From Rubripirellula amarantea (GTDB lineage Bacteria; Planctomycetota; Planctomycetia; Pirellulales; Pirellulaceae), in assembly GCF_007859865.1 (NCBI RefSeq), contig NZ_SJPI01000001.1, positions 3,419,241 through 3,483,240 of the forward strand: 64,000 bases of DNA. The letters run 5' to 3'. The notes under the pieces are model-generated. The model ran no database searches and was not told the DNA's origin. It was given only the letters and a program-made list of their open reading frames with translations. Below, piece by piece: positions 41,331 to 55,055 of this stretch. The position numbers were made by a program, and so were the translations under genes. Numbering within the stretch: the stretch's first letter is position 1; every line of letters starts with the position of its first letter.

Positions 41331-41762
<432 letters not shown>

Positions 41763-41888
41763 GGTCTCGTATAGGTTGAAGGGAAATGTGTCCGCGATGC
41801 GTTCGTGACGCAGGAATCATGTTGGGCAGCGTACATGACGCGATGCCCATCATGATGGACGAAGTTAAAAAATGAGCGTGTGCAAACG

Positions 41889-42464
41889 CTAAGGTGCGAC
41901 TTCTTCGAGTTCGCCAGTTTCTTCGAGTTCGCCAGTGTCAAAGACACCTTCCAAGGTTGGTTCCTCGAAAGTAGCGAGTTCGTCGATGTCAATCATGTGT
42001 TCGGTTCCATCTTCCATGACTAACTTTGCCGTTCGCATTCGAACTTCCTGGGTGTTCGATTTGTCTTGCACTATGTAAACAAACCCGGAACCCTTATCGC
42101 CAACAATCGTGAACGCAATGTTCTCACCGGCCTCGGGATTCGAGCTGGCATGCTTGAACGTTTCCGTCAAGTCCGCATCGAAGGATTCAATGTTCCCAAT
42201 GTTTTCGACAATGGTCGGATTGCCTTCCAATTGGCTGCGGTACTCCGATGCCACGATGCCGATACCGGCTTTGGTGATGAAGAGACTGCCTCCGCAGCAC
42301 ACCAGCATTCCAAGTAGTGTTACACCGCCGCAACCGAGCAACCAAAATTTGGTGTTGCTCTTCTTTGGCGGTGGAGCATCGTACCCTGCGGCTGCATTGG
42401 GATTCAGGGCATTGGGGTTTGGCGACGCGTTGTCACCGAAGGGATCGTTGGGATTCATTGACAT
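41889..42464 (-). CDS. Membrane protein of unknown function with Asn/Pro-rich N-terminus
   Basis: A 191-residue protein that I do not recognise. It begins with a low-complexity Asn/Pro/Ala stretch (DPFGDNASPNPNALNPNAAA), then KKSNTKF and one membrane helix rich in Gly and Cys (about 41-62), then a periplasmic or outer domain (VASEYRSQLEGNPTIVENIG, GENIAFTIVGDKGSGFVYIVQ). The C-terminus holds an 18-bp direct repeat coding TGELEETGELEE. The pattern of a short proline-rich cytoplasmic tail, one helix and a small domain is common in planctomycetes. No function can be assigned. Confidence 0.75.
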   Translation of the reverse strand: MSMNPNDPFGDNASPNPNALNPNAAAGYDAPPPKKSNTKFWLLGCGGVTLLGMLVCCGGSLFITKAGIGIVASEYRSQLEGNPTIVENIGNIESFDADLTETFKHASSNPEAGENIAFTIVGDKGSGFVYIVQDKSNTQEVRMRTAKLVMEDGTEHMIDIDELATFEEPTLEGVFDTGELEETGELEEVAP

Positions 42465-42692
42465 AGAATGATCTTTTCTAATTCACAAGTCCGTAAGCGC
42501 GAATAGTGCGAGTACTATTAGAACCTCCCATGGTGTATCGTCATAGTCGGTATTCGCCCGCAGTACGGCGTCGTGGCGATGTTTGTGGCGATGTTGGTTG
42601 GTACCGTCCGTCGACGTCGGGAAATGGCCTTGGCATGCATCATCAAACCTGAATCATCCCCCGCCGATCACCCTGTTTTTCTAGGAATTTTT

Positions 42693-43337
42693 ATGCGAAT
42701 TTTTGTACTGTTGCTCGTGGTGTTCACGAGTGTCGCACGCGGTGACGAAGGCGTTCCGAGCAGTGCGGCAAGTCACAATTCATCTATGGTGGCTGGCAAG
42801 ACGCTCAGCGATTTGAAAGAGGGCATCAATTCGGAAGATCGTGTCGTGCGAACTCGATCGGTGAAGTCGATCGCGGCGTTTGCGTTTCGCTCTGATGATA
42901 AGGCGATCGGTCAGGCGTTGTCTGATGCAATGGATCATGATGACGCGGCGGTCCGCTATATCGCTATGGTTAGCTTGGGCGACATCACGAAAGCACCGTA
43001 CGTGCCGCAAGTCATCAGCGACGCCACTCAAGCGAAGTTGAAAACGGCGGTCAAGAACGATCCATCAAACTCGGTCAAGATGGCCGCATCCTATGCCTTA
43101 TGCCAAGCCGGCGAAGTGGATGAGTACCTTTCCGTCTTATTGGAAGATCTGGATCATCCCTTGCGAGGCGTTTCCTGCAGTGCAGCGGAATTGATTGGCA
43201 AGATTGGGCCAGCGGCTCAAGCAGCCAAAGTGAAGTTAAGTGAAGTCGCCGCGAACAATGACGCCAAGAAAAAGATTGGCGACTATCACCGCGGTGGAGC
43301 GGCGGCGACAGCGTTGTTGAAGATTTCGGCTCCTTAG
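42693..43337 (+). CDS. Exported HEAT-repeat protein
   Basis: Exported protein of 214 residues. The ATG at 42693 has an agga ribosome binding site and a signal peptide ending near SVARGDE; the longer frame from 42573 is not leader-like. The mature part has three to four HEAT/PBS-lyase-like helical repeats (VVRTRSVKSIAAFAF, DDAAVRYIAMVSLGDI, DPSNSVKMAASYALCQAG, HPLRGVSCSAAELIGKIG). Such repeats usually bind other proteins. It is followed by a sulfatase gene 86 bases downstream, which may be in the same operon. Confidence 0.82.
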   Translation: MRIFVLLLVVFTSVARGDEGVPSSAASHNSSMVAGKTLSDLKEGINSEDRVVRTRSVKSIAAFAFRSDDKAIGQALSDAMDHDDAAVRYIAMVSLGDITKAPYVPQVISDATQAKLKTAVKNDPSNSVKMAASYALCQAGEVDEYLSVLLEDLDHPLRGVSCSAAELIGKIGPAAQAAKVKLSEVAANNDAKKKIGDYHRGGAAATALLKISAP

Positions 43338-43423
43338 CAAACGCCGTTTCTTGGTGAGTGCCGTTTGTTCGCGATTGGTGCTTTTGTCATTCTCATTTTG
43401 CTTCCTCATCATTCTTGACTGTT

Positions 43424-45031
43424 ATGCGTACTGTAAAAATCATCTTGCTGTTGGCGATGTGCGTTTTCGCTCGGACCGTATCGGCCGACAATCGTCCCAA
43501 TATCCTTTGGATCTCATGCGAAGACATTTCGCCCAACCTCGGTTGCTACGGGGATCCTCATGCGATCACGCCGACGTTAGATCGTTTGGCGTCCGAGGGG
43601 ACTCGGTTCACTCGCGCGTTCACACCGGCCGGAGTTTGCGCGATTGTTCGCAGCAGCATCATCACGGGCATGTACGCACCGACGATTGGATCGCAACACA
43701 TGCGATCGGAGATCATTCCTCCGGCGAACGTGAAGGCGTTTCCAGAACTGTTACGAGCTGCAGGCTACTTCACCACGAACCGAAGTAAGACCGACTACCA
43801 ATTCAATTCAACGCCGGCGATCTGGGATCGGCAAGGACCCAAGCACGAGGATTGGCGTGAACGCAAAGATCCCGACCAACCGTTCTTTAGCGTGATCAAC
43901 TTTATCGAAAGCCATGAAAGTCAAATCCGTCACGGTGAAGCCAAGCACCGCAAAGTGGTGGAAACGATCGGGTCCGAGAACGCTCATGATCCGAACAAAG
44001 TCGGCGACACGATTCCTGAATACTTGCCCAACACGCCGGCCACGCGAAAGAACTGGGCGTGGTACCACGATAACATCACCCTTATCGACAAATTCACCGG
44101 TGATGTGCTTCAGCGGCTCGAAGATGATGGATTGACTGACAACACGATCGTCATTTTTTGGGGCGATCATGGCATGGGCCTGCCGCGTGGAAAGCGATGG
44201 CTCTATGACACCGGTACTTTGGTGCCAATGATTGTGCGTTGGCCGAAGTCGGTCGGCGATGATGTCGGCGAAGCACCTGGAACAGTCCGCGAAGATTTGG
44301 TGACAACGGTTGATTTGGCACCCACCATGCTCAGCCTAGCTGGAGTGGAAGTTCCTTCGTACATGCAAGGGCGAGTCATGATGGGCAAGAACCAAGGCGA
44401 AGAGCCGCCCTATTTGTTCTATCATCGCGATCGTATGGACGAGGTTTACGAGTTGCAACGCGCTGCTCGCGATCGTCGCTGGAAATACATTCGCAACTTT
44501 GAACCTGAAAAGCCGTACTCACAGCGGCTTGAGTACATGGACGATATGCCAGCGATGCAAGATTGGCGACGTTGGGCTGCCGCAGGTCGACTTTCCGGCG
44601 GCATGGAAAATTGGTTTCAGGTTCCTAAGCCGATCGAAGAGCTCTATGACACGAATAAAGATCCCTACGAGCTGAACAACTTGGCCGACCGCGCTGAATA
44701 CGCGGATCGTATGTCGAGAATGCGAGCGGCAATGGAAGCGTGGCAGGAAGAGATCGCAGACACCGGAATGATTCCCGAGGCTGTGATGATGGAGGAAATG
44801 AAACCGGATGGGGTCACGCCCACAACGGAGAATCCCGAAATGGAAAGATCCGACAATCGCGTTTCCATTACCTGCCCGACCGACGGTTCATCGCTGGTTT
44901 ACCGGACCAAGACCGACGATGGATGGAGCGACTGGACGCTTTACACAAAATCGTTTTCCCACGATGGTGCTGTGCAAGCTCAAGCTTGCCGCCTCGGTTT
45001 TTCGGACAGCGAAGTTGTCACGCTCGATTGA
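43424..45031 (+). CDS. Secreted sulfatase with non-canonical CAIVR motif
   Basis: Sulfatase of 535 residues, exported by a signal peptide ending near TVSADN. The fold is clear: NILWISCEDISPNLGCYGD with the metal-binding Asp, FTPAGVCAIVRSSIITGMY at the active-site position, and IFWGDHGMGLPRGKRWLYD for the second metal site. The motif is C72-A-I-V-R instead of C-x-P-S-R, so the position that is normally Pro (or Ala) is Ile. Whether formylglycine can be formed is therefore uncertain. A C-terminal beta segment (RVSITCPTDGSSLVYR) follows the catalytic part. Its last 52 bases overlap the convergent DUF1289 gene. Substrate unknown. Confidence 0.88.
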   Translation: MRTVKIILLLAMCVFARTVSADNRPNILWISCEDISPNLGCYGDPHAITPTLDRLASEGTRFTRAFTPAGVCAIVRSSIITGMYAPTIGSQHMRSEIIPPANVKAFPELLRAAGYFTTNRSKTDYQFNSTPAIWDRQGPKHEDWRERKDPDQPFFSVINFIESHESQIRHGEAKHRKVVETIGSENAHDPNKVGDTIPEYLPNTPATRKNWAWYHDNITLIDKFTGDVLQRLEDDGLTDNTIVIFWGDHGMGLPRGKRWLYDTGTLVPMIVRWPKSVGDDVGEAPGTVREDLVTTVDLAPTMLSLAGVEVPSYMQGRVMMGKNQGEEPPYLFYHRDRMDEVYELQRAARDRRWKYIRNFEPEKPYSQRLEYMDDMPAMQDWRRWAAAGRLSGGMENWFQVPKPIEELYDTNKDPYELNNLADRAEYADRMSRMRAAMEAWQEEIADTGMIPEAVMMEEMKPDGVTPTTENPEMERSDNRVSITCPTDGSSLVYRTKTDDGWSDWTLYTKSFSHDGAVQAQACRLGFSDSEVVTLD

Positions 45032-45204
45032 CCTGCTTCCGCAACGCGCTGCGCCGCTGCGGCGACAATCGCTCGGCGGCATTCTTCGCTTGCCGACATC
45101 CAACCCGCGATCTCATCGCCGGTGCGTCCACATCCTACGCATACGCTCAGTTCACTGAGCACGCACTTTTCGATGCACGGGGATTTTACGTTGGGTTCTT
45201 GCAT
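44980..45204 (-). CDS. DUF1289 family small Cys protein
   Basis: Small protein of 74 residues of the DUF1289 family. It has the family's Cys spacing, SPCIEKCVLSELSVCVGCGRTGDEIAGW, which probably binds a metal or iron-sulfur cluster. The function of the family is not known. The start ATG at 45204 was chosen because the conserved part begins nine residues later; the longer frame from 45303 adds unrelated sequence. The 3' end overlaps the last 52 bases of the convergent sulfatase gene. Confidence 0.85.
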   Translation of the reverse strand: MQEPNVKSPCIEKCVLSELSVCVGCGRTGDEIAGWMSASEECRRAIVAAAAQRVAEAGQSSVTTSLSEKPRRQA

Positions 45205-45342
45205 AAGAATTTGTTCAGGGGATGTCGCGTCATCGTAGATGCGTGTCAATAACAGGCCCAGTCGCCGCACGCCGGCAAATCTGGCAAGTGGCAAATTTGG
45301 CAAGTGGCGACCCGGGCTAGAACGTTTTCTTCTTGAAGGGCG

Positions 45343-46227
45343 TTATCGGTTCGAGACGCGATCACGTCTTTGGAATCGCAAAGCTCCTAGTATCAGGCTG
45401 CCAATAGCGATCACCGATAAAGTGGATGGCTCGGGCACGGCGGTGATCGTCAAATTGTCAAACGCAACGTATGTCGGTGTGTTGATTCCGAAATCCCCCG
45501 AGTCGCTAGATGCGAACGAAACGGCAACGGATCGTGCGTTGCGAATGCTCGTCAAATCAAACGTAGTCCAATCGCCAAGAATGTAGTCCTGGGAATTGTC
45601 TGCAAATGTAAAATCGGCCAGGTTTGCCGTCACGGATCCGATCGAATTGCCGCCGGCATTAAGCGAATCGAATCCCGTCAGCGTTATACGGAAGAAGTCG
45701 GCATCATTTCGCGATACACCGCCAAACCTCTTGGCGAATCCATCGCCATCTCGCATCGACAAGGCAGCGTACGTCGTGTTGGCGACGTCGACTGACAATA
45801 ATTCGGAACCGTTGGGTAGATTAAAAAATGCTCCGCTTCCAAAAGCAACGGCGTAGGTACCGCCGGCTTGGACATTGCCGTTTCCGCTGGATCCACCGCC
45901 AGGGTATGCCGCGTATTGGTTGTTGAGTCCTGGACTCGAGCTATTGATAACGTTGCTGTAACTCCACCCGCTCCAGAAGTCGAAGGATGGAAGGTAATCG
46001 CCATTGTAGCTGTTGCTAAATCGCACTCCTTTGCTGTTCCAGCCTGTTGAGTTGGTGCTGCCGGAGCCATCGTTACCGTTGTAGTACGATCCGCCACCAT
46101 CTGGACTTGATCCCGTGAAGGCACCAAGTTCTTCAAAGTCGACCACCACTGCAGCCATCGAATAGCGAGGCATGGCGATCGTGGCTGACAAACTAATTAG
46201 GGTCACAGCAATCAGTGAAAGTTTCAT
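45343..46227 (-). CDS. DUF4465 protein with PEP-CTERM sorting signal
   Basis: Exported protein of 294 residues. A signal peptide (about 1-25, ending YSMAA) is followed by a beta-rich domain of the DUF4465 type: VVDFEELGAFTG, the Gly/Ser/Asn/Tyr-rich part with DFWSGWSYSN, AAYPGGGSSGNG, YAVAFGSGAFF and the middle part with FFRITLTGFDS and WTTFDLTSIRNARSVAVSFASSDSG. The C-terminus has the PEP-CTERM signal: VPEPST, a hydrophobic segment and RFQRRDR, so it should be anchored by an exosortase system. As I recall, DUF4465 is the domain of the cobamide-binding BtuH lipoproteins of Bacteroidota, which fits the cobalamin riboswitch found upstream in this unit. It follows the DUF1559 gene with 114 bases between them. 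Confidence 0.85.
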   Translation of the reverse strand: MKLSLIAVTLISLSATIAMPRYSMAAVVVDFEELGAFTGSSPDGGGSYYNGNDGSGSTNSTGWNSKGVRFSNSYNGDYLPSFDFWSGWSYSNVINSSSPGLNNQYAAYPGGGSSGNGNVQAGGTYAVAFGSGAFFNLPNGSELLSVDVANTTYAALSMRDGDGFAKRFGGVSRNDADFFRITLTGFDSLNAGGNSIGSVTANLADFTFADNSQDYILGDWTTFDLTSIRNARSVAVSFASSDSGDFGINTPTYVAFDNLTITAVPEPSTLSVIAIGSLILGALRFQRRDRVSNR

Positions 46228-46264
46228 GGAACGTTGTTCTTCTATGTGAGGAGGAATTGGGTCT

Positions 46265-46280
46265 AACCCTCGCAAGGGTT
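46265..46280 (-). repeat. Short hairpin before the DUF4465 gene
   Basis: A six-base perfect inverted repeat, aaccct with agggtt around cgca, lies 37 bases before the DUF4465 start. With the larger inverted repeat just upstream it makes the intercistronic mRNA structured. Confidence 0.6.
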
Positions 46281-46285
46281 CTCGG

Positions 46286-46344
46286 TAGTGACCGAGGCCA
46301 CGAGTCTCATGAAAGTTGGTCGAGACGCGTGGCCTCGTTCACTA
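46286..46344 (-). repeat. Long inverted repeat between DUF1559 and DUF4465 genes
   Basis: Arms 46286-46308 and 46322-46344 (23 bases each) pair with only two mismatches and a 13-base loop. The downstream arm (on the plus strand) contains the stop codon of the DUF1559 gene. There is no T tract, so it is not a classical terminator; it could protect the upstream mRNA, cause partial termination, or mark processing. Confidence 0.8.
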
Positions 46345-47160
46345 CGGTGCGTATTGCGCGGTCTCCCCTTTTGCGATCGTGATCAGTTTTCCGAGCAAAG
46401 ACTTGTCAATCGATTCGGTCATGAACAATGTTCGGCCGTCTATGAACAGGACCATCGCACCACCAGGGTGCAGACTGCGGATCTCGTTGTCGCCAACCCA
46501 CGCTTCGTGATCGTTGATTCCCCATGCTTGCACGAACACATTGCGACCGTTGATCCATTCGCTATCGGGGCCGCCCACGTCTTCGGCAACGGCCAGCGTG
46601 TTGGTGAGGCCATCGCGGATTGCGCGAAACGAAATTATTTTGTCGTAAAGAAAGCAGCCGTCGCTTGGATCGGTATCGACGATACGTTCACCGTAGAGAC
46701 CGCCGTAGTCCGTTTGCCCACGAATCAGGTTTCGGTCGGGCGCCGTCGGGCACTCATACATAGCTACGCGAGTTTGGGCTGCGACTCGATTTCGTTCGGA
46801 ATCAAACGGTAGCGAAAAGTCGATGGAATCATGAAGAGATTGTTGTTCAATGAAAGGCAGTAGGAACGCGGACCAAGCGAATTGACGATGTGTTGGCGGG
46901 GCCATGAATCCTCGCCATTCGATGCACCCAGTGGGCAGGGATCGGTGTGCGTTGTGATACGCGTGAAGGGCCAACCCAATTTGTTTGAGGTGGTTCTTGC
47001 ACGTGGTCTTTCGTGCTGCCTCGCGCGTCGCCTGGACTGCGGGCAAAAGCATCGCCACCAAAATGCCAATGATGGCGATGGAAACCAACAATTCGATCAG
47101 GGTGAAGCCCCGGGAACGGTGGCATTTTCGGACGAACGGGTGCGCGGGCAGGGATGACAT
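46342..47160 (-). CDS. DUF1559 pseudopilin-like protein (H-X9-DG type)
   Basis: Protein of 272 residues with a type IV prepilin-like N-terminus: a short basic leader, then RGFTLIELLVSIAIIGILVAMLLPAVQ, with cleavage after Gly and methylation expected at Phe. The DUF1559 part follows (REAARKTTCKNHLKQIGLALHAYHNAH, FSWSAFLLPFIEQQ-like segment QFAWSAFLLPFIEQQ). Near the C-terminus is the H-X9-DG motif (LHPGGAMVLFIDGRTL). Such proteins are very numerous in planctomycetes and are thought to be exported by a type II secretion-like machine to the cell surface. The gene stands 234 bases after a cobalamin riboswitch, so its expression should fall when B12 is plentiful; the DUF4465 gene comes next on the same strand. 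Confidence 0.9.
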   Translation of the reverse strand: MSSLPAHPFVRKCHRSRGFTLIELLVSIAIIGILVAMLLPAVQATREAARKTTCKNHLKQIGLALHAYHNAHRSLPTGCIEWRGFMAPPTHRQFAWSAFLLPFIEQQSLHDSIDFSLPFDSERNRVAAQTRVAMYECPTAPDRNLIRGQTDYGGLYGERIVDTDPSDGCFLYDKIISFRAIRDGLTNTLAVAEDVGGPDSEWINGRNVFVQAWGINDHEAWVGDNEIRSLHPGGAMVLFIDGRTLFMTESIDKSLLGKLITIAKGETAQYAP

Positions 47161-47393
47161 GGCGAGTGCAGTTGTCGCACCCGCCGCGATCGTGTTGGCA
47201 GACCGGTAGCCCAAATCACTGTCGAATCAACAGCGACTCAATCAAACAGGTGTGCTTTGCGAACGAAGACGAACGACAACTGATGGGGAGGGATGCTTTT
47301 GGCAAATCGATTCAAGCCAAGGGGGCAAAAACCCGGCAATGGATTTCAATCGCAACGATTGCCCCAATCCAAGAGGGCACGACATCGTCTTGT

Positions 47394-47618
47394 TCAAGGT
47401 AGGTCTTCTGACTCGCTACCTTTTCCGATCGCTCGCAGCCTTCTCGTTCGCCACCGAGGTAATTCCACGGCGGAAAACAATGACTCTTCGTAAGAAGGAG
47501 CGACGGATGCAATTGCGTTAGCAATCGCGGGCAGCATACAGCGGCTGGACCGTCCCGGAATTTCACCGGAGTTCCCTGTTAAATCGTTTGCCAGAACGCA
47601 AACGAGATCACCTTGAAC
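47394..47618 (-). ncRNA. Cobalamin (B12) riboswitch
   Basis: On the minus strand the sequence matches the cobalamin riboswitch core. Reading 5' to 3': an opening aaggt (about 47616-47612), a hairpin cgtttgc/gcaaacg (about 47604-47584), then acagggaactccggtgaaat and tccgggacgg with gccgctgta, which is the GGGAA...CGGTG...TCCGGG...CTGTA core; further on gtcattg and gagaaggc stand for the GCCACTG and GGGAAGGC boxes; and the 3' end is gcgagtcagaagacctacc (47417-47399), matching GCGAGCCAGGAGACCTGCC. P1 can form between aaggt and acctacctt. About 234 bases separate it from the DUF1559 start; a possible stem gcaat/attgc followed by gggttttt lies in that stretch and could be the expression platform. 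Confidence 0.93.
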
Positions 47619-47958
47619 GTCGAGAAGCATAGCAGCGACGAACCACTCGTCAAGCCGCAATCGTGACCGTGTCTGGGTTTCACTGTCCTCAGGTTCATCC
47701 CACCGCCCGGCGACTTAATTCCGCCGACCCAGCGACCATTCAATCGCTTTTGAATTGCGGTTTTTCGCTTCCTAATACTTGCCGTTCGCACGCCAGCGCA
47801 CGTGCTTGGCTTCGTTCTTTACTGAACTCCATAGCGTAGGATCGGCGACCTAGCACCTGAACGTTTTTGCATCCAACCGTTTTGCCATCGAGCGTCTCTT
47901 GCATCATACGTCGATTGCATCGAGACGCTTAAGCATGCTGAACCAAGTTCAAACGCTT
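47619..47958. other. Intergenic region upstream of the riboswitch
   Basis: This stretch of about 340 bases separates the stop of the PQQ-like gene from the riboswitch and should hold the promoter of the riboswitch transcript. An eight-base inverted repeat (agcgtctc at 47891-47898 with gagacgct at 47922-47929) with a long loop lies near the end of the PQQ-like gene and may help end that transcript. I see no gene here. Confidence 0.55.
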
Positions 47959-49212
47959 TCAATCTTGCAAATCAATGCAAGCCGCTTCTTCGGTGCTGCG
48001 GACGTAGAGCCGCCCATTGCTGAAGGCTGGCGTGGACCAACACTTGCCTCGCACGACATCCGCTCTCGCAAGTTCGACGTATTCATCCGGGCGGGCCGAG
48101 ACGATGACGACTTCTCCGGCATCCGAAAGAGCAACGATTTTGTTTCCGACTTGGATGCAGTTCCCAGGTCCAAATCCGCCCTTCTTCCATTTGATTTCAC
48201 CCGTTGCCAAGTTGACGCACTGAAGCGGAGCTCGGCCGTACTTCTTGAATTCGAAAATTCCGTACAAGTGTCCATCGTGAACAACAGGCGTGCTCCAGTG
48301 GTTCATTAATTCATTCGCTTTAAACCAAAGTTCGGTTGCTTCTGCTTTTTCCGTTACCTTGAAGAGACCGGCGCCGACGCCATAGCCGGCTGAGCAATAG
48401 ACCCGGTCACCCTCAACTACAGGGGAAGCCGCGGTCGATGTGCTAAACGGAAACTTCGCTCGCCAAATCTCTTCGCCTGATTGAACGTCCACTGCCACCA
48501 ACCCCGACGTTACGAAGAAAACGATCTGCTTTCGATCGTTAATTTCAGCCAAGCAAGGAGTCGCGTGAGTGATTGTTTCGTCGCCGGATTTCCAAAGAAC
48601 TTGCCCATCGTCTTTGTTGAATGCCAAGAACGATTGGCCAGCTCCACCGCCACCGACGATCACGGAGTTCCCATCGACGATCGGGCTCGATGCGTTTCGC
48701 CAAGGAATGTTGCGACCTTCGAACTCAGCCTCGATGTCACGTTTCCAAAGCGATTGGCCCGTTTCGGCATCAAGGCAGTGCAATGTCATGAACGCGTCGT
48801 ATGCGAAGACGCGATCGCCGGAAATGGTGGGTGTCCCGCGAGGTCCATCACCGCCTCGGTTGTCCGGTGCACCGGCATCACCACCGCCGCGTCCGTACTT
48901 GATCGAACCAAGTTGAGCTTCCCAAAGTTTCTTGCCGGTGTTGGCGTCCAACGCCAAGCAGACCTCGTGTTCTTGTTCCCCCACAAGCGTGATCGCGCGG
49001 CCATCGGCAACCGCAAACGAGCTGAACCCAAGTGGCGTCGGAGCTTTCCACAGCACCTTGGGGCCTGAACTACCCCATGGCTTATCGCTAATACTGGCCG
49101 TCGAAACGCCATCGCCCGCGGGGCCGCGATATTGGGGCCATGGTTCGGCAGTGACACGATGCGACGAAGCTAGGATGAAGGCAGCGAAAGCCAGCAGAGC
49201 AATTAATTTCAT
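47959..49212 (-). CDS. Exported PQQ-like beta-propeller protein
   Basis: Exported protein of 417 residues made of a PQQ-type (quinoprotein dehydrogenase-like) beta-propeller. The signal peptide runs to about residue 23 (HRVTAEP). It starts with WPQYRGPAGDGVST, and the blade repeats are seen as VCLALDANTGKKLWEAQL, LHCLDAETGQSLWKRDI, FLAFNKDDGQVLWKSGD, LVAVDVQSGEEIWRAKF, LQCVNLATGEIKWKKGGFG. The catalytic residues of true PQQ dehydrogenases are not evident, so it is more likely a binding protein or a scaffold. Three closely spaced in-frame ATG codons lie upstream (49239, 49227, 49224); I chose 49212, which gives the best leader (MKLIALLAF). Confidence 0.88.
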   Translation of the reverse strand: MKLIALLAFAAFILASSHRVTAEPWPQYRGPAGDGVSTASISDKPWGSSGPKVLWKAPTPLGFSSFAVADGRAITLVGEQEHEVCLALDANTGKKLWEAQLGSIKYGRGGGDAGAPDNRGGDGPRGTPTISGDRVFAYDAFMTLHCLDAETGQSLWKRDIEAEFEGRNIPWRNASSPIVDGNSVIVGGGGAGQSFLAFNKDDGQVLWKSGDETITHATPCLAEINDRKQIVFFVTSGLVAVDVQSGEEIWRAKFPFSTSTAASPVVEGDRVYCSAGYGVGAGLFKVTEKAEATELWFKANELMNHWSTPVVHDGHLYGIFEFKKYGRAPLQCVNLATGEIKWKKGGFGPGNCIQVGNKIVALSDAGEVVIVSARPDEYVELARADVVRGKCWSTPAFSNGRLYVRSTEEAACIDLQD

Positions 49213-49385
49213 GGCGGGATTCATCATGGCGGGATTCATGGGGGAAGGTAGGGATAGTTTGGCCGATGGCGAAAACCGATAGCCAGGTAGAAGTCATTGA
49301 AGAGCAATCCATGCCCGATTGCAACGGCTAGCCCAGCGGTCAAACTGTTAGGAAATCGACGAGCCGCCTTCGCATTGAGTCAGAC

Positions 49386-50591
49386 ATGATGATTCGTAAC
49401 CTTTTTCTCTTTCTCAGTTTGTTCCTCTGTGGCGAGTCTTTCGTATTGGCGCAAGCTGTGGATGGCGATTCCCAAGCGAAGCCGCTAATCCTTGCCCACT
49501 ACATGCCTTGGTTTAGTGCCAGCCCTCGAGCGGATGATTCTGGCGAGATGTCGTGGGGATGGCACTGGACGATGAACCATTTCGATCCCGATCAAGTGAA
49601 GGGAGATCGACGCCAAATTGCTTCGCACTTTTATCCCGTGATTGGACCCTACGATTCGGCTGATCCCGCGGTGCTTGAATACCATTTGTTGCTAATGAAG
49701 ACCGCTGGCATCGATGGAGTGATTGTTGATTGGTACGGACTCGAAGCCTTCAACGATTATCCCATGTTGCACAGGAACACTCAATTGCTTTTCGAAGCCG
49801 TTTCCAAACGGGGCATGAAGTTTGCGATTTGTTACGAGGACCAGACCATTCCGATCATGGTCAGGGCAGGACGTCTTAATGAATCCGATCAGGTGTCGCA
49901 CGCAATCAACGAGATCAACCAGATGCAGACCATGTGGTTTGATCATCCCTGTTACGTGCGAGTTGATGGCAAGCCCGTTTTGTTATCGTTCGGCGATTCG
50001 GGGTTGACCAACGATGGCTGGAAGGAATGCTTAGCGGGCCTGAAACATTCTGTTGCTTACTTCAGCGAACACACACGTCGTGACGGCGCGATGGGTGCTT
50101 ACGATTGGCCCGTTCCGTCCATGGGATTTAAAGCAAGCGATCGGTTCGAGACACTTGCCAAGTCTTGGGAATACGCGATTCCCGTTGCGTTTCCGCGGTT
50201 CGTCGATTGTTACGCCGAAGGAAACGCGGGTGATGGCTACCAACACATCGACGACTGGGGAGGCGAAACGTTCAAGCGGACATTGGTGACCGCCAGCAAG
50301 TTTAACGCTCCGATGATTCAACTTGCTACGTGGAACGATTGGGGCGAGGGAACGCAGATTGAACCAAGTCGCGAACATGGATTCCGCGATCTAGAGATGA
50401 TTCAAATGTTTCGGCGTCGTTACGTGGATAAGAAGTTTGCCGCAAAAGCAGACGACTTGCAGTTGCCACTTGAGCTTTGGAAACAGCGTCAAGATGCGGC
50501 CGCCGATGATGGTCGGCTCACCGAGGTTGCGGACCTGATTGCCGACGGTGAATTTGCCAGAGCCCGTAAACGATTGGAGTCACGTCGTTGA
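49386..50591 (+). CDS. GH99/GH71-like glycoside hydrolase
   Basis: Exported protein of 401 residues with signal peptide (about 1-22) and a TIM-barrel like those of families 99 and 71: PLILAHYMPWFSA near the start, WHWTMNHFDPDQ, IASHFYPVIGPYDSADPAVLEYHLLLMKTAGIDGVIVDWYG, FAICYEDQT, and WNDWGEGTQIEPSREHGF near the C-terminus. GH99 enzymes are endo-alpha-mannosidases/mannanases, but planctomycetes hold many GH99-like proteins of unknown substrate, so I name only the fold. A short helical tail follows. The next gene starts within its stop codon. Confidence 0.85.
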   Translation: MMIRNLFLFLSLFLCGESFVLAQAVDGDSQAKPLILAHYMPWFSASPRADDSGEMSWGWHWTMNHFDPDQVKGDRRQIASHFYPVIGPYDSADPAVLEYHLLLMKTAGIDGVIVDWYGLEAFNDYPMLHRNTQLLFEAVSKRGMKFAICYEDQTIPIMVRAGRLNESDQVSHAINEINQMQTMWFDHPCYVRVDGKPVLLSFGDSGLTNDGWKECLAGLKHSVAYFSEHTRRDGAMGAYDWPVPSMGFKASDRFETLAKSWEYAIPVAFPRFVDCYAEGNAGDGYQHIDDWGGETFKRTLVTASKFNAPMIQLATWNDWGEGTQIEPSREHGFRDLEMIQMFRRRYVDKKFAAKADDLQLPLELWKQRQDAAADDGRLTEVADLIADGEFARARKRLESRR

Positions 50592-51076
50592 ACGATTTGT
50601 TGCCGAAAGATTTGTATTTCGCGTACGGATCCAACTTGAACGTGCCCGAATTTAGAAGTTGGTGTCAGCGTAACGGTTTTCTGAATGCGTTCATTGAACC
50701 GATCGTGGTGGCTCGCTTGTCAGGTTACGCTCTTTCGTTCTCACATTACAGCCGCGCCAGAAACGGAGGCGCGTTGAATGTTGTGCCATCGGAAAACGAA
50801 TATGTAGACGGCGTCGTGTTTCAAGTTCCCGGACCGGAAGGATGGGCGGCGCTGGATGCCAAAGAGGGCTTTCCCAAACGCTACCAGAAAGAATCGCTTT
50901 CGCTGAAAACTGATGACGGGAAAGACCTCTTAGCGTGGGTCTACGTGGTGAAGGAACCCAAGTGCGATCACTATCCACCGCACAGCGATTATGTTCGCGT
51001 CGTGCAGGACGGTTGTCGAACGTTCAAAATGTGTGAGAAGCGATTGTTGAAGGCTGCTAGATTGACGTCGCCTTGA
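50588..51076 (+). CDS. Gamma-glutamylcyclotransferase-like protein
   Basis: Cytoplasmic protein of 162 residues with the GGCT/AIG2-like fold. The first strand carries the substrate loop LYFAYGSNLN; the middle part has VVFQVPGPEGWAALDAKEG, with the likely catalytic Glu in DAKEG, and a strand AWVYVVKEPK. Members cyclise gamma-glutamyl groups, for example in glutathione breakdown. The TTG start at 50588 overlaps the stop of the preceding gene (TTGA), so translation is probably coupled to it. Confidence 0.82.
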   Translation: MNDLLPKDLYFAYGSNLNVPEFRSWCQRNGFLNAFIEPIVVARLSGYALSFSHYSRARNGGALNVVPSENEYVDGVVFQVPGPEGWAALDAKEGFPKRYQKESLSLKTDDGKDLLAWVYVVKEPKCDHYPPHSDYVRVVQDGCRTFKMCEKRLLKAARLTSP

Positions 51077-51093
51077 CTGGCAAGGCGTGGGGT

Positions 51094-51735
51094 CTAGATC
51101 GCTCGCCCAACTTGTGAAAGATGGCTGACGTAGCAAGTGTTTTCCAGATTCTTGGGCAGGGACCCATGAGGATCGAAGGCGATGACTTGCATGCCCGCGC
51201 TATGGGCCGCTTCGATTCCAAAGACGCTGTCTTCGACGACAAGGCAATCGGCTGGAGCCACTTGCAGTGCTTCCGCAGCAGCAAGAAATAACTTGGGGTC
51301 TGGTTTCCAAGCATCGACATCATAAGCGCTAAAGATCCGGTCATCGCTGCAATGGGCGATCAAGCCTGTGGTTTCCAAGCAGATGCGGATTTTCTGGCGG
51401 GGAGCGTTCGATGCGACGCAGAATGGCAATGATAACGATCCCAGTAATTCCATCGCTCCATCGACAGGTTGCAGACGCTCGGCCAGAACCTCGAATTGAC
51501 GACGTCGGAAATTGGGAAGGAAATCAAGAGGCAAAGGAGTGTTGAGTGTCGCTTCCAATTCCGCCAACACCACCTTCAGGTCGTTGCCCGCAAAACGCAC
51601 CATTGCTTCGTCGTGCGTCATGCGAATCCCAAGCGGCGTCACGCCTTCGAGAAGCAGTTCCATGCTGATGGTTTCGCTGTCGACGAGAGTTCCATCGCAG
51701 TCAAAGATCACCGCTTGAACAGGTTGTCGAATCAT
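51094..51735 (-). CDS. HAD-superfamily phosphatase (beta-phosphoglucomutase-like)
   Basis: Hydrolase of 213 residues. Motif I is VIFDCDGTLVDSE (nucleophile Asp and acid/base Asp), motif II is CVASNAPRQKI with the Ser/Asn, motif III includes the Lys of DAWKPDPKLF, and motif IV is CLVVEDSVFGIEAAHSAGM. This is subfamily IA with a helical cap, similar to beta-phosphoglucomutase and small phosphosugar phosphatases. The ATG at 51735 starts it; an in-frame extension to 51837 is not needed. The substrate cannot be read from the sequence. Confidence 0.9.
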   Translation of the reverse strand: MIRQPVQAVIFDCDGTLVDSETISMELLLEGVTPLGIRMTHDEAMVRFAGNDLKVVLAELEATLNTPLPLDFLPNFRRRQFEVLAERLQPVDGAMELLGSLSLPFCVASNAPRQKIRICLETTGLIAHCSDDRIFSAYDVDAWKPDPKLFLAAAEALQVAPADCLVVEDSVFGIEAAHSAGMQVIAFDPHGSLPKNLENTCYVSHLSQVGRAI

Positions 51736-52321
51736 GGAATTAGGAAACGGGTAAAAGGATCGGAGCGGACAATTGGACTGAAAACGTAGACAAACTAAGC
51801 CATCGAGCAAGCCGGTGACCCCTGGCAACCCCTGCAAACGACTTTAAGGGGGTGCTTTGCCTACTTAAGCTTCGTGAAACTGAATTCTTCCTATGCGTTG
51901 ACTCGGGGTCGGGCTATAGTTCGTCATACCCGCGGTGGAAGCCGTCGGGTAAGAACTCGCCGGAAAGAAGCAAGTGACGTGATTTTGTTGATCATGTTAT
52001 CCGGTAAAGATGTCTTCGAAGATTCCTGGTGAATCCCAAACGACAACTGAGTTCATGCGTTTGTTAACTTTGGCGGAGTTCTTTGCTCTGCTCACGATCC
52101 ACCACCGGCATGGGAGCCAGTGGCAACCATTTTGAGCCACCCTTACTCAAAACAAAGATCGACCGTGTCGGGAGACTATTTTCAGTCGCCTCGCCACAAA
52201 CACTTCGGAACCTTCTTGTTTGGCCGAAGTCTCCGCAGATCCACCGGGATCTCGGACCCTATTTGGCATCCGCACGTCTAGAAGTGACATCGCATCTCGT
52301 GGTACAGCTTTTAGTGACACC
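51736..52321. other. Long region between the HAD and DEAD-box genes
   Basis: About 586 bases without a convincing gene separate the divergent HAD and helicase starts. Part of it may be the 5' leader of the helicase, since the helicase frame is open from 52220 without an ATG. Cold-shock DEAD-box genes of other bacteria have long leaders, but I see no known regulatory RNA here. Confidence 0.45.
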
Positions 52322-53698
52322 GTGACCAATCGCCTTCGCGATGATCCGTTTGCGTTGCCCCACATTCAAGAATCTTTGGATACTCCTTTGAAGACGTTTT
52401 CAGAATTGAAGCTCATCGCGCCACTCGAGCGCGCCCTAAAAGACCAGAACTACGAAATCCCCACGCCGATCCAGGCACAAACCATTCCGCATGCACTCGA
52501 GGGCAAAGACATCCTCGGATGCGCGCAAACGGGAACGGGTAAAACCGCCGCGTTCGCGTTGCCGCTGTTGGACTTCCTTGGCGGCGAAAAGCGAATCGCT
52601 CAACCGGGTCGCCCCCAAGCACTCGTGCTCGCACCCACTCGTGAGCTAGCCATTCAAATTGGCGACTCAATGCGAGTCTACGGCAAGCATTTGAAACTCC
52701 GCACCGTGCTTGTGTTCGGTGGAGTGAATCAAAACAGCCAAGTTCGCGAAATGCAACGCGGTGCGCACATCCTTGTTGCCACGCCGGGTCGCTTGTTGGA
52801 TTTGATGGAACAAGGGCATATCAACCTTGGCGAACTTGAGGTCTTTATCCTCGACGAAGCCGATCGAATGCTTGACATGGGCTTCTTGCCTGACCTCAAG
52901 CGAATCATCGCCAAATTGCCTGATGATCGGCAGTCGATGTTCTTTAGTGCAACCATGCCACCAAAGATCGTTGATCTTGCGAACCAGTTATTGTTCAATC
53001 CCATTAGTGTCAACGTGACACCGAAGGAAACGAGCGTTAAGCGAATCACGCAAGAGCTCGTGTTTTGCGATCGAGGTGAAAAGCCCGAATTGCTTCGTCA
53101 GATCGTTGTCGGCCAAAACGTTGATCGGGTGATCGTTTTCACTCGCACCAAACGCGGTGCTAACGTCGTCGCGAAAAAGCTCGAACAGTCCGGCACCGAA
53201 GCCGCAATCATTCACGGCAACAAATCGCAGGCCGCTCGTCAAAAGGCACTTGCTGCATTCCGCGACAAGAAAGTTCGCGTGCTTGTTGCCACGGATGTCG
53301 CTGCTCGCGGGATCGACATCGACAACGTCACTCATGTGGTCAATTACGATCTACCCAATGAACCGGAAGCCTATGTTCATCGCATCGGGCGGACCGGTCG
53401 AGCAGGAGCCGAAGGAATCGCAATCTCGTTCTGCTCCGGCGAAGAGCTCGATGACTTGAAGGAAATCGAAAAGCTCTTGGGCATGAAAATTCCTCGCGAC
53501 CCCAATTCGGTGATGCCGGCCTGGGAACCTAAACGCAAGCCAGGCGGCGGTGGGCAGCGTCGTGGTGGTGGAGGTTCATCTCGCCGCAGTGGGCAAGCGA
53601 AAGCATCGTCGGGTGGTCGCAAGCCGGCTAGTCGCGGTCCTGGGGCAGGTGGTCAGCGACGATCAAAGCCTAAAAACCGTCGCCACGTCGCTTCCTAA
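52322..53698 (+). CDS. DEAD-box RNA helicase with basic Gly/Arg-rich tail
   Basis: RNA helicase of about 458 residues. It has the Q motif (KTFSELKLIAPLERAL, YEIPTPIQAQTIP), motif I (AQTGTGKTAAF), Ia (LAPTRELAIQ), II (FILDEADRMLDMGF), III (FFSATMP), IV (RVIVFTRTKRGA), V (VATDVAARGIDID) and VI (YVHRIGRTGRAG). The tail after about residue 395 is rich in Gly, Arg, Lys and Ser (GGGGQRRGGGGSSRRSGQAK), which would bind RNA, as in RhlE-type enzymes. No ATG is present near the start; I use the GTG at 52322, while a TTG at 52220 would give 34 more residues. It probably aids ribosome assembly or mRNA turnover. Confidence 0.9.
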   Translation: MTNRLRDDPFALPHIQESLDTPLKTFSELKLIAPLERALKDQNYEIPTPIQAQTIPHALEGKDILGCAQTGTGKTAAFALPLLDFLGGEKRIAQPGRPQALVLAPTRELAIQIGDSMRVYGKHLKLRTVLVFGGVNQNSQVREMQRGAHILVATPGRLLDLMEQGHINLGELEVFILDEADRMLDMGFLPDLKRIIAKLPDDRQSMFFSATMPPKIVDLANQLLFNPISVNVTPKETSVKRITQELVFCDRGEKPELLRQIVVGQNVDRVIVFTRTKRGANVVAKKLEQSGTEAAIIHGNKSQAARQKALAAFRDKKVRVLVATDVAARGIDIDNVTHVVNYDLPNEPEAYVHRIGRTGRAGAEGIAISFCSGEELDDLKEIEKLLGMKIPRDPNSVMPAWEPKRKPGGGGQRRGGGGSSRRSGQAKASSGGRKPASRGPGAGGQRRSKPKNRRHVAS

Positions 53699-53750
53699 GC
53701 GAATGCGTGTCGTCAATCTGGACGAAATCTGAACAGAATCTGAACAACGA

Positions 53751-53786
53751 GTGCGGCGAGCAATGATGATTGCTCGTCGCATTTTC
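53751..53786 (+). terminator. Probable terminator after the DEAD-box gene
   Basis: A 12-bp stem (53753-53764 with 53769-53780, one G-U pair) with a four-base loop is followed by attttcg. The T run is short, so termination may be partial. Confidence 0.7.
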
Positions 53787-53852
53787 GTTGGTGGACGGGT
53801 AAACTGTGGACCCTATTGATCTTCCCCTTGATTGAACGCACGGACTATTCAC

Positions 53853-55055
53853 ATGACACGTATCTCTGTTGCTCTGCTAGCACTCCTGGCAGTCATTCCC
53901 GCCATCCTGTGTGATGCCGTCCTGTGCGATGCCGCCACTTTCTATGTGGGGCCCAATGGAAGCGACTCGTATGGTCGCAACCAAGCTACCAACCGTTCCA
54001 CGCCCTGGCGTTCGATCCAGCGTGGGGTCAACGAAGCCGGCGGTGGCGATACCGTGGTCGTATTGTCGGGGACCTACTACGAAAGCGTCTATCTTGGGCG
54101 TAGCGGCTACGGTGGAAACGAGATCACGTTGAAAAGTGAATCTCGCGAAGGCGCCCGCCTGATTGGATCGATCTCGTCGAATGATCAAAGTTACCTTCGC
54201 GTCGATGGATTCGATGTCAGCAATTACAGTTCGACGGGGCTAACTAAAGGAATCAGCTTCAATCGTTGCCACCACGTTACCGTGCGAGATTGTCGCGTCA
54301 GAGAATGTTGGGGTGGAGGGATATCCTTTGACCAAACCGATTGGATTCTATGCGAATGGAACATCACCCACGAGAACGCTTACAACGATCCCAACCAGCA
54401 CAGCGGAATCTCGGTGTACCAACCTCAGTATCGAGGCAATGACTCTCGCGCGTACGGCATCATCATTCGCAACAACACATCTTTCAACAATTGGAACTAC
54501 GTCAACAACGTTAATTTTGGGCGTCCCACGGACGGCAACGGAATTGTGGTCGACGATTTTAAGAATGGTCAGTCCGGCGGCAACGGCGTTCCCTACGATC
54601 GAATGACAGTCATTGAAAATAACATCTGCTTTGACAACGGAGGGCAGGGGATTCATTGCTACGCCAGTCAAAACATTCGCATCCGCAACAACACCTGCGT
54701 CAACAACGTGGGAAGCTTTGACTTCGGGGGCGAAGTCTCGGTATCAGAATCAGAACGTGTTTACGTTTACAACAACATTCTGACTGCTCGAAACGGCAAG
54801 CGTGCCGCACTGCAGTATGACTCCAACAATTTCTGGTTTGGGTTCAACGTGATCGACGGTCCGGTGCTCAACGTTCCCTACGACGGCAGCAACATCTACG
54901 GCCCTGCCGGTTTCCGCCAAGGTTCGTTCGAGCTCGAGCCGTTCAGCGCAGCGGTCAACAGTGGAGTCGATGGCGGAGACCACTTTTTCCTGGACGCTTA
55001 CGGACAAAATCGTCAAAATGCGGCTCTCGACCGAGGTGCGATCGAAGTCCAATAA
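53853..55055 (+). CDS. Secreted right-handed beta-helix protein
   Basis: Exported protein of 400 residues. After the signal peptide (about 1-27, ending LCDAATF) comes a DUF1565-like opening (FYVGPNGSDSYGRNQATNRSTPWRSIQRGVNEA) and a right-handed parallel beta-helix with repeated turns (RVDGFDVSN, NRCHHVTVRDCRVREC, GIIIRNNTSFNN, MTVIENNICFDNGG, QNIRIRNNTCVNN, ERVYVYNNILTARN). The end NAALDRGAIEVQ is usual for this type. The fold is that of pectate lyases and alginate epimerases; I cannot identify catalytic residues, so it may be a lyase or a binding protein. ATG at 53853 gives the clean leader; a TTG lies seven codons earlier. Confidence 0.85.
   Translation: MTRISVALLALLAVIPAILCDAVLCDAATFYVGPNGSDSYGRNQATNRSTPWRSIQRGVNEAGGGDTVVVLSGTYYESVYLGRSGYGGNEITLKSESREGARLIGSISSNDQSYLRVDGFDVSNYSSTGLTKGISFNRCHHVTVRDCRVRECWGGGISFDQTDWILCEWNITHENAYNDPNQHSGISVYQPQYRGNDSRAYGIIIRNNTSFNNWNYVNNVNFGRPTDGNGIVVDDFKNGQSGGNGVPYDRMTVIENNICFDNGGQGIHCYASQNIRIRNNTCVNNVGSFDFGGEVSVSESERVYVYNNILTARNGKRAALQYDSNNFWFGFNVIDGPVLNVPYDGSNIYGPAGFRQGSFELEPFSAAVNSGVDGGDHFFLDAYGQNRQNAALDRGAIEVQ

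Follow-up and report, generated by a model that had tools for sequence, protein, structure and literature searches.

The DUF4465 proteins (PF14717, IPR027828) of Bacteroides thetaiotaomicron are BtuJ1 and BtuJ2, lipoproteins encoded in loci with btuB (PMC13398666, PMC12751083). A 2026 paper reports cyanocobalamin binding by eight divergent members of this family, one of them from Mucisphaera calidilacus, and describes conserved pocket tyrosines of the DE and HI loops, Y146 and Y245 in BtuJ1 (PMC13398666). M. calidilacus is a planctomycete (PMC8882080). BtuG1 of B. thetaiotaomicron is reported to carry a C-terminal extension of about 250 residues that is homologous to BtuH2 (PMC10404256). Planctomycetes also carry many DUF1559 genes: this is the biggest paralogue group of Planctopirus limnophila, with 68 copies, two of them essential and the function unknown (PMC10632474), and 74 DUF1559 genes are annotated in Rhodopirellula baltica (PMC2754498). 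Here we analyze a stretch of 64,000 nucleotides of the Rubripirellula amarantea genome (the window), in which a cobalamin riboswitch precedes a gene for a DUF1559 pseudopilin and another for a DUF4465 protein. We think it likely that this locus is one half of a two-operon, B12-regulated surface cobamide-capture system, with a BtuJ-like pocket, a PEP-CTERM anchor, and a dedicated pseudopilin that would handle the cobamide at the outer membrane.

The riboswitch and the DUF4465 protein

A cmscan search of the 64-kb window placed a cobalamin riboswitch aptamer (RF00174) at 47381 to 47630 on the minus strand, with a score of 62.4 bits, about twice the gathering score of 31.5 (model positions 1 to 189; E, 4.8e-13). 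It was the sole Rfam family above threshold in the window, and the whole genome has two RF00174 riboswitches. A reading made from the letters and their open reading frames (ORFs) without database searches, hereafter the sequence-only reading, had recognized this riboswitch at 47394 to 47618, which gave the right place and strand and fell 12 to 13 bases short at each end. It had also read a DUF1559 pseudopilin gene and then a DUF4465 gene behind the riboswitch, and the Pfam scans agree. The DUF1559 gene (minus strand, 46342 to 47160) encodes 272 amino acids from the first ATG, at 47160, and lies in an ORF of 46342 to 47214 that reaches a TTG at 47214. The DUF4465 gene (minus strand, 45343 to 46227) encodes 294 amino acids from the first ATG, at 46227, and its ORF extends over 45343 to 46275. 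No BtuB, BtuF, or B12 synthesis gene was seen in the ORF list between the riboswitch and the gene pair, and no btuB or btuCD, which are common but not universal DUF4465 neighbors, was found in ten chosen ORFs scanned from the region 41334 to 55052. This agrees with the earlier claim that no known B12 synthesis or BtuB/BtuF gene is present there.

The window DUF4465 protein scored 153.9 bits against PF14717 (cutoff, 25). A search of PDB sequences with E values up to 1 returned six chains, 9qpm, 9fct (BtuJ1), 9hmu, 9i2l (BtuJ2), and 4jqr and 4e9k (named hypothetical protein), and no BtuH chain. DUF4465 had been taken at first for the domain of BtuH; we discard that label, since the DUF4465 proteins of B. 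thetaiotaomicron are BtuJ1 and BtuJ2. The claim of cobamide binding to which the label was attached fares better, as members of its family have been shown to bind B12 and the protein keeps the two named tyrosines. The 9fct match pairs its NTTY and NTPTY loops with Y146 and Y245, by positions counted back by hand on the printed alignment, and Y153 and Y253 (numbered from the ATG) are at least 90% conserved across 31 planctomycete DUF4465 domains. From the family and the two retained tyrosines, we infer that the window protein captures cobamides in the same pocket as BtuJ.

The protein has a signal-like N terminus and ends with VPEP, a hydrophobic segment, and an arginine-containing tail. The tail scored just under both curated cutoffs (20.5 versus 20.7 bits for PF07589 and 15.6 versus 16 bits for TIGR02595), which weighs against a PEP-CTERM anchor. 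In the relatives, a [VI]PEP motif was present in all 19 DUF4465 ORFs shorter than 900 amino acids, and its first match lay 60 residues or fewer from the end in 17. Pfam reported PEP-CTERM at an E value of ≤0.001 in 9 of 31 aligned DUF4465 rows, many of these rows being cut domains. The window genome has three exosortase genes, and the DUF4465 protein is probably held at the surface through a PEP-CTERM/exosortase anchor.

A sister operon in the same genome (locus L041 on contig G000:C2; L and G numbers are our handles for loci and genomes) has a riboswitch at 147676 to 147904 on the minus strand, then a DUF1559 gene, and then a gene for an 1,860-amino-acid protein. The N-terminal part of this protein is a domain that we call X, and a dockerin and three DUF4465 domains are also present. 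The X family is found at riboswitch loci in 29 genomes, as stand-alone PEP-CTERM proteins or as the N-terminal part of giant proteins with several DUF4465 domains, and the two members that were scanned alone had no Pfam match save the PEP-CTERM tail. An X profile searched against all PDB sequences with E values up to 10 gave one match, B. thetaiotaomicron BtuG1 (8blw_B; residues 373 to 477 of 663; E, 1.1e-5). Foldseek with the AlphaFold model of X again ranked this chain at the top (E, 4.8e-3; probability, 1.00; template modeling score, 0.44 by query length), in an output that does not give the aligned part of the BtuG1 chain. Because BtuG1 is both the single sequence match and the first Foldseek match, domain X may be BtuH-like, remotely. 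Several points weigh against this assignment. If the BtuH-like extension is the last 250 residues, the sequence match spans the linker and no more than the start of that extension; BtuH2 itself was unmatched by the X profile among PDB sequences with E values up to 10; and the X model is a moderate one (predicted local distance difference test score, 72), with a structural match of E 4.8e-3.

Conservation shows a dedicated DUF1559 pseudopilin

Our main survey covered the window genome and 59 relatives (60 genomes). PF14717 was found in 37 of them and RF00174 in 54. When DUF4465 domains less than 2.5 kb apart were grouped, there were 40 clusters, and a same-strand RF00174 riboswitch lay 350 to 2,118 bases upstream of the domain in 39; the 40th cluster starts at base 226 of its contig. 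A DUF1559 gene stood between the riboswitch and DUF4465 in 35 of the 39 loci (34 of 38 fetched loci and the window). The recurrence of this order indicates that the riboswitch goes with this gene pair. The sequence-only reading had proposed a survey of such neighborhoods in other planctomycetes and had named a riboswitch that always serves another gene in related genomes as a refutation; these counts support the association. The arrangement has its exceptions, as the pilin gene is missing in L047, L054, and L057 and comes after DUF4465 in L059, and the genomes are related, so the loci are not independent events.

In a sample of the phylum, PF14717 was rare, with 9 of 343 genomes positive, the window genome among them. 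Eight loci were taken from seven of these nine genomes, beyond the window's and G052's, and a riboswitch was upstream of DUF4465 in seven; the remaining locus, L240, starts at a contig edge. Farther downstream, L234, L238, L239, and L241 have a DUF1559-type gene, the first three with weak scores of 55 to 66 bits; in L235 to L237 such a gene is placed divergently upstream.

The window DUF1559 protein scored 166.7 bits against PF07596 (cutoff, 23.3), 39.3 bits against the N_methyl prepilin signal PF07963 (cutoff, 21.2), and 22.3 bits for the H-X9-DG tail (cutoff, 19), and TIGR02532 and TIGR04294 were both above cutoff. DUF1559 was absent from 14 control genomes, and the named relatives found with a DUF1559 alignment, in a scan that used one generic pilin pattern and was judged by titles only, were nearly all planctomycetes. 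The window genome has 41 DUF1559 places, with fragments merged by hand. Such numbers, like the 68 and 74 copies in the two published genomes (PMC10632474, PMC2754498), could make a DUF1559 gene beside the riboswitch a matter of chance in organisms that carry dozens of copies. By our estimate of about one gene per kilobase, DUF1559 makes up less than 1% of genes, compared with its presence in 35 of 39 loci. In a tree, 45 of 51 riboswitch-linked DUF1559 rows, including that of the window, fell into one clade (support, 98/96).

A profile search of the 60 genomes gave 46 matches that scored 289 bits or more, spread over 44 genomes, and 45 of these 46 genes lay behind a same-strand cobalamin riboswitch. 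The next score among the matches listed was 253.5, and none of the next 10 matches was near a riboswitch. A high-scoring clade match was present in 36 of the 37 DUF4465 genomes, and the window protein scored 385.2 bits against the clade profile A1, which includes that protein. A model that started from the window protein and was built partly from clade rows gave 289 to 405 bits for the riboswitch-clade rows, 253 and 259 for two CobQ-linked rows, and 154 to 227 for the other own-genome copies fetched. Survey, tree, and profile search led us to reject chance adjacency, to which we give a negligible likelihood. Some reservations apply to the profile result: no riboswitch was found within the 3.5 kb searched at the high-scoring pilin of G031, the profile was made from riboswitch-linked rows, whose high scores are therefore built in, and no more than 43 candidates per genome were scored. 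With 45 of 46 clade matches behind a riboswitch, the DUF1559 gene is a real partner, and conservation shows that its product is the dedicated pseudopilin of the system and not a bystander.

The other 6 of the 51 riboswitch-linked rows occupied three further places in the tree, which suggests that DUF1559 genes were probably recruited under cobalamin riboswitches more than once. DUF1559 lineages outside the main clade stand directly behind cobalamin riboswitches in L082, L088, L091, and L092, among others.

Thirteen DUF1559 positions reach 85% conservation or more across the 45 clade rows and no more than 30% among 35 other rows from the same genome; they include N207, F209, Q211, I215, and N225 and appear to mark a surface or a core. 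A pilin that itself binds cobamides, as one of a set of planctomycete solute-binding pilins with each paralogue specific to its own nutrient, would account for these positions and would be in line with the reported binding of dextran by fibers of two planctomycetes (PMC5394234). The marked residues would serve equally well as a partner or packing surface, and the AlphaFold model of DUF1559 had no PDB match at an E value of ≤0.001 by Foldseek, its best matches being pilins. This lack of a significant fold match, which also counts against the capture system as we propose it, means that the model gives no ligand site, and we dropped the fold as a clue to the ligand. We consider a cobamide-binding pilin rather improbable.

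Cobamide import and the route across the outer membrane

MetH is encoded in the window genome, as is a MerR-like regulator that carries a B12-binding domain. A CobS search that was positive in 10 of 14 controls found none there, and on this ground the window planctomycete probably must import cobamides. A point against a strict need is the report that another planctomycete, Stieleria tagensis, can grow with no vitamins added, although its growth was promoted by B12 (PMC10541342), so that such a need cannot be assumed across the group. The only FecCD match in the window genome is an ABC-3 gene, and no BtuC was recognized there. One PF00593 TonB barrel is present (L152), with no riboswitch at that place and no plug domain reported at an E value of ≤0.01. 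There was no recognizable BtuB in a genome-wide search that used PF00593 and not PF07715.

A riboswitch-led BtuB was found in 5 of the 60 genomes: G023, G024, G035, G041, and G048 (behind a second riboswitch). The DUF1559 clade was present in none of these five and in 44 of the 60 overall (P = 0.0008, a value that ignores kinship and comes from a test picked after the pattern was seen). No PF00593 match at an E value of ≤0.001 was obtained in 17 of the 44 clade genomes, 12 of which are at least 90% complete, and 21 of the 60 sampled genomes are without a detectable TonB barrel. G044, the sole DUF4465 genome without a clade DUF1559, has DUF4465 and X behind a riboswitch and six TonB barrels. 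The mutual exclusion of BtuB and the clade, with the distribution of TonB barrels, suggests that the pilin takes the place of BtuB; this is a correlation. Weighing against it, the other 27 clade genomes gave a PF00593 match, in five cases only below the curated cutoff.

In the system that we favor, scarcity of B12 would let the operon be expressed, as is usual for this riboswitch class. The DUF4465 protein would be exported, probably anchored at the surface through PEP-CTERM and exosortase, and would catch cobamides there in its pocket, as its homology and conserved tyrosines predict. The sister operon would make a giant version in which three DUF4465 domains and a dockerin are joined to a possibly BtuH-like domain. 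At the outer membrane, the DUF1559 protein would then act with the pseudopilus machinery of the cell to handle the cobamide that has been caught, which in Bacteroides is the work of BtuB with TonB. A stronger form of this proposal is TonB-independent uptake, in which exosortase-anchored BtuJ-like and BtuH-like catchers would hand B12 to a dedicated, riboswitch-controlled DUF1559 pseudopilus that pulls the vitamin through the outer membrane. The dextran-binding fibers of planctomycetes make a pilus route for a vitamin plausible, and we advance this form tentatively, thinking it somewhat more probably wrong than right.

Loci without DUF4465 bear on a different role for the pilin. Of the 39 fetched riboswitch loci that have no DUF4465, 15 have DUF1559 as their first gene, and in 7 of these 15 the next protein has a PEP motif near its end (L099, L100, L102, L103, L106, L109, and L111). 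DUF1559 might accordingly be a cargo pseudopilin for type II secretion-like export of the DUF4465, X, and giant dockerin proteins, with no movement of the vitamin. Its N_methyl motif and GspG-like N terminus would suit this role, as would its place beside same-strand genes of exported proteins. In L081 and L113, however, a DUF1559 gene of a lineage outside the main clade lies between a cobalamin riboswitch and CobQ, with a BtuF-like gene downstream (domain checked in L113 only) and no exported surface binder. The absence of the clade from the five riboswitch-BtuB genomes likewise fits an uptake role better, and we regard the cargo role as unlikely, though worth keeping in view.

The cobalamin regulon is not confined to uptake, since a large subunit of ribonucleotide reductase, which we take to be the B12-dependent NrdJ, is led by a cobalamin riboswitch in eight loci (L084, L090, L093, L096, L098, L114, L115, and L117; domains checked in L084 only). 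The same riboswitch class could then control a B12-sparing or surface function in the window, with a DUF4465 protein that no longer binds B12 and a pilin used for adhesion. We find this very improbable: the eight divergent DUF4465 members reported to bind include one from a planctomycete (PMC13398666), the window protein keeps the named tyrosines, and the genome in which CobS was not found probably needs import. The capture system remains our preferred reading of the locus.

Neighboring genes and comparison with known systems

Directly next to the DUF4465 gene and on its strand is a gene for a small cysteine-rich DUF1289 protein (44980 to 45303, minus strand; PF06945, 59.1 bits), a possible third gene of the operon. 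Folding of the 114-base gap between the DUF1559 and DUF4465 genes gave a strong RNA hairpin at 46293 to 46337 (minus strand) without a T run, which might set unequal amounts of the two proteins. Inspection by eye did not show this hairpin in the folds of 15 relatives; L045 has a different one. We dropped the assignment of an expression platform, as a promoter-like site (47653 to 47626) and four terminator-like sites were within shuffle expectation.

A DUF1289 motif is also present in the first ORF behind the riboswitch in L083, L085, L086, L087, L089, and L116 (Pfam checked in L087). In L045, DUF1289 stands in one open frame just ahead of the prepilin signal, so prepilin cleavage would release it. 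A DUF6580 gene lies behind cobalamin riboswitches in L083, L085 to L087, and L107 (Pfam checked in L087 and L107); in L049 it comes immediately after DUF1559 and DUF4465. Judged by its hydrophobic look, DUF6580 is a candidate inner-membrane cobamide transporter. The term DUF6580 was not found in the literature searched, which covered few subscription papers, and NCBIfam gave no match for DUF6580 or for the window DUF1289 protein. PEP-CTERM families that we call Z, Y, and V/W follow the riboswitch-DUF1559 pair in L099 and L102 and in L103, L106, and L111. Pfam found in the members scanned only the tail or EF-hand/dockerin-like motifs, and PDB searches with one Y-type and one Z-type protein gave EF-hand/dockerin and weak unrelated matches.

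A search of the literature that covered few subscription papers, and is weak evidence for that reason, returned nothing on planctomycete cobalamin riboswitches and nothing on a PEP-CTERM anchor on DUF4465, an X-DUF4465 fusion, or a dedicated pseudopilin. Cyclic di-GMP riboswitches beside PEP-CTERM genes are on record in one paper. The riboswitch and the binding domains are of known kinds, and the anchor, the fusion, and the pseudopilin, which did not turn up in that search, may be new.

The window operon shares with BtuJ1 and BtuJ2 the Pfam family, the pocket tyrosines of BtuJ1, the riboswitch link, and export. It differs from their btuB-linked lipoproteins in its PEP-CTERM-like tail and pseudopilin neighbor and in that no btuB was seen nearby. 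A planctomycete relative is the DUF4465 protein called Pan of M. calidilacus, whose cyanocobalamin binding has been shown (PMC13398666). The main text of that paper does not contain the terms PEP-CTERM, exosortase, pilin, DUF1559, or planctomycet, and so describes neither the operon nor its pilin. In sequence, domain X resembles a portion of the C-terminal half of BtuG1 (BtuGH), and BtuG1 is its first structural match, which relates it to the BtuG1/BtuH proteins of B. thetaiotaomicron. BtuG1 has a propeller in front, whereas X has none and is fused to DUF4465, and the identity is remote, with BtuH2 unmatched. A BtuJ-like and perhaps also a BtuH-like binding domain of gut Bacteroides would be reused with a different anchor.

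The ties of one DUF1559 clade to a single ligand-sensing RNA give a family of unknown function a testable ligand context. Planctomycetes, with no detectable TonB barrel in 21 of the 60 genomes, may have solved the uptake of a vitamin across the outer membrane in another way. The pseudopilus route, if true, would be the first role assigned within one of the largest planctomycete paralogue families. The closest parallel to it is the pili-like fibers of the crateriform structures of Planctopirus and Gemmata, which are likewise planctomycete fibers tied to the uptake of outside molecules (PMC5394234). There the ligand is dextran and the fiber protein is unnamed, and the main text does not mention DUF1559; the pseudopilus proposed here would, by comparison, be a nutrient pilus for a vitamin.

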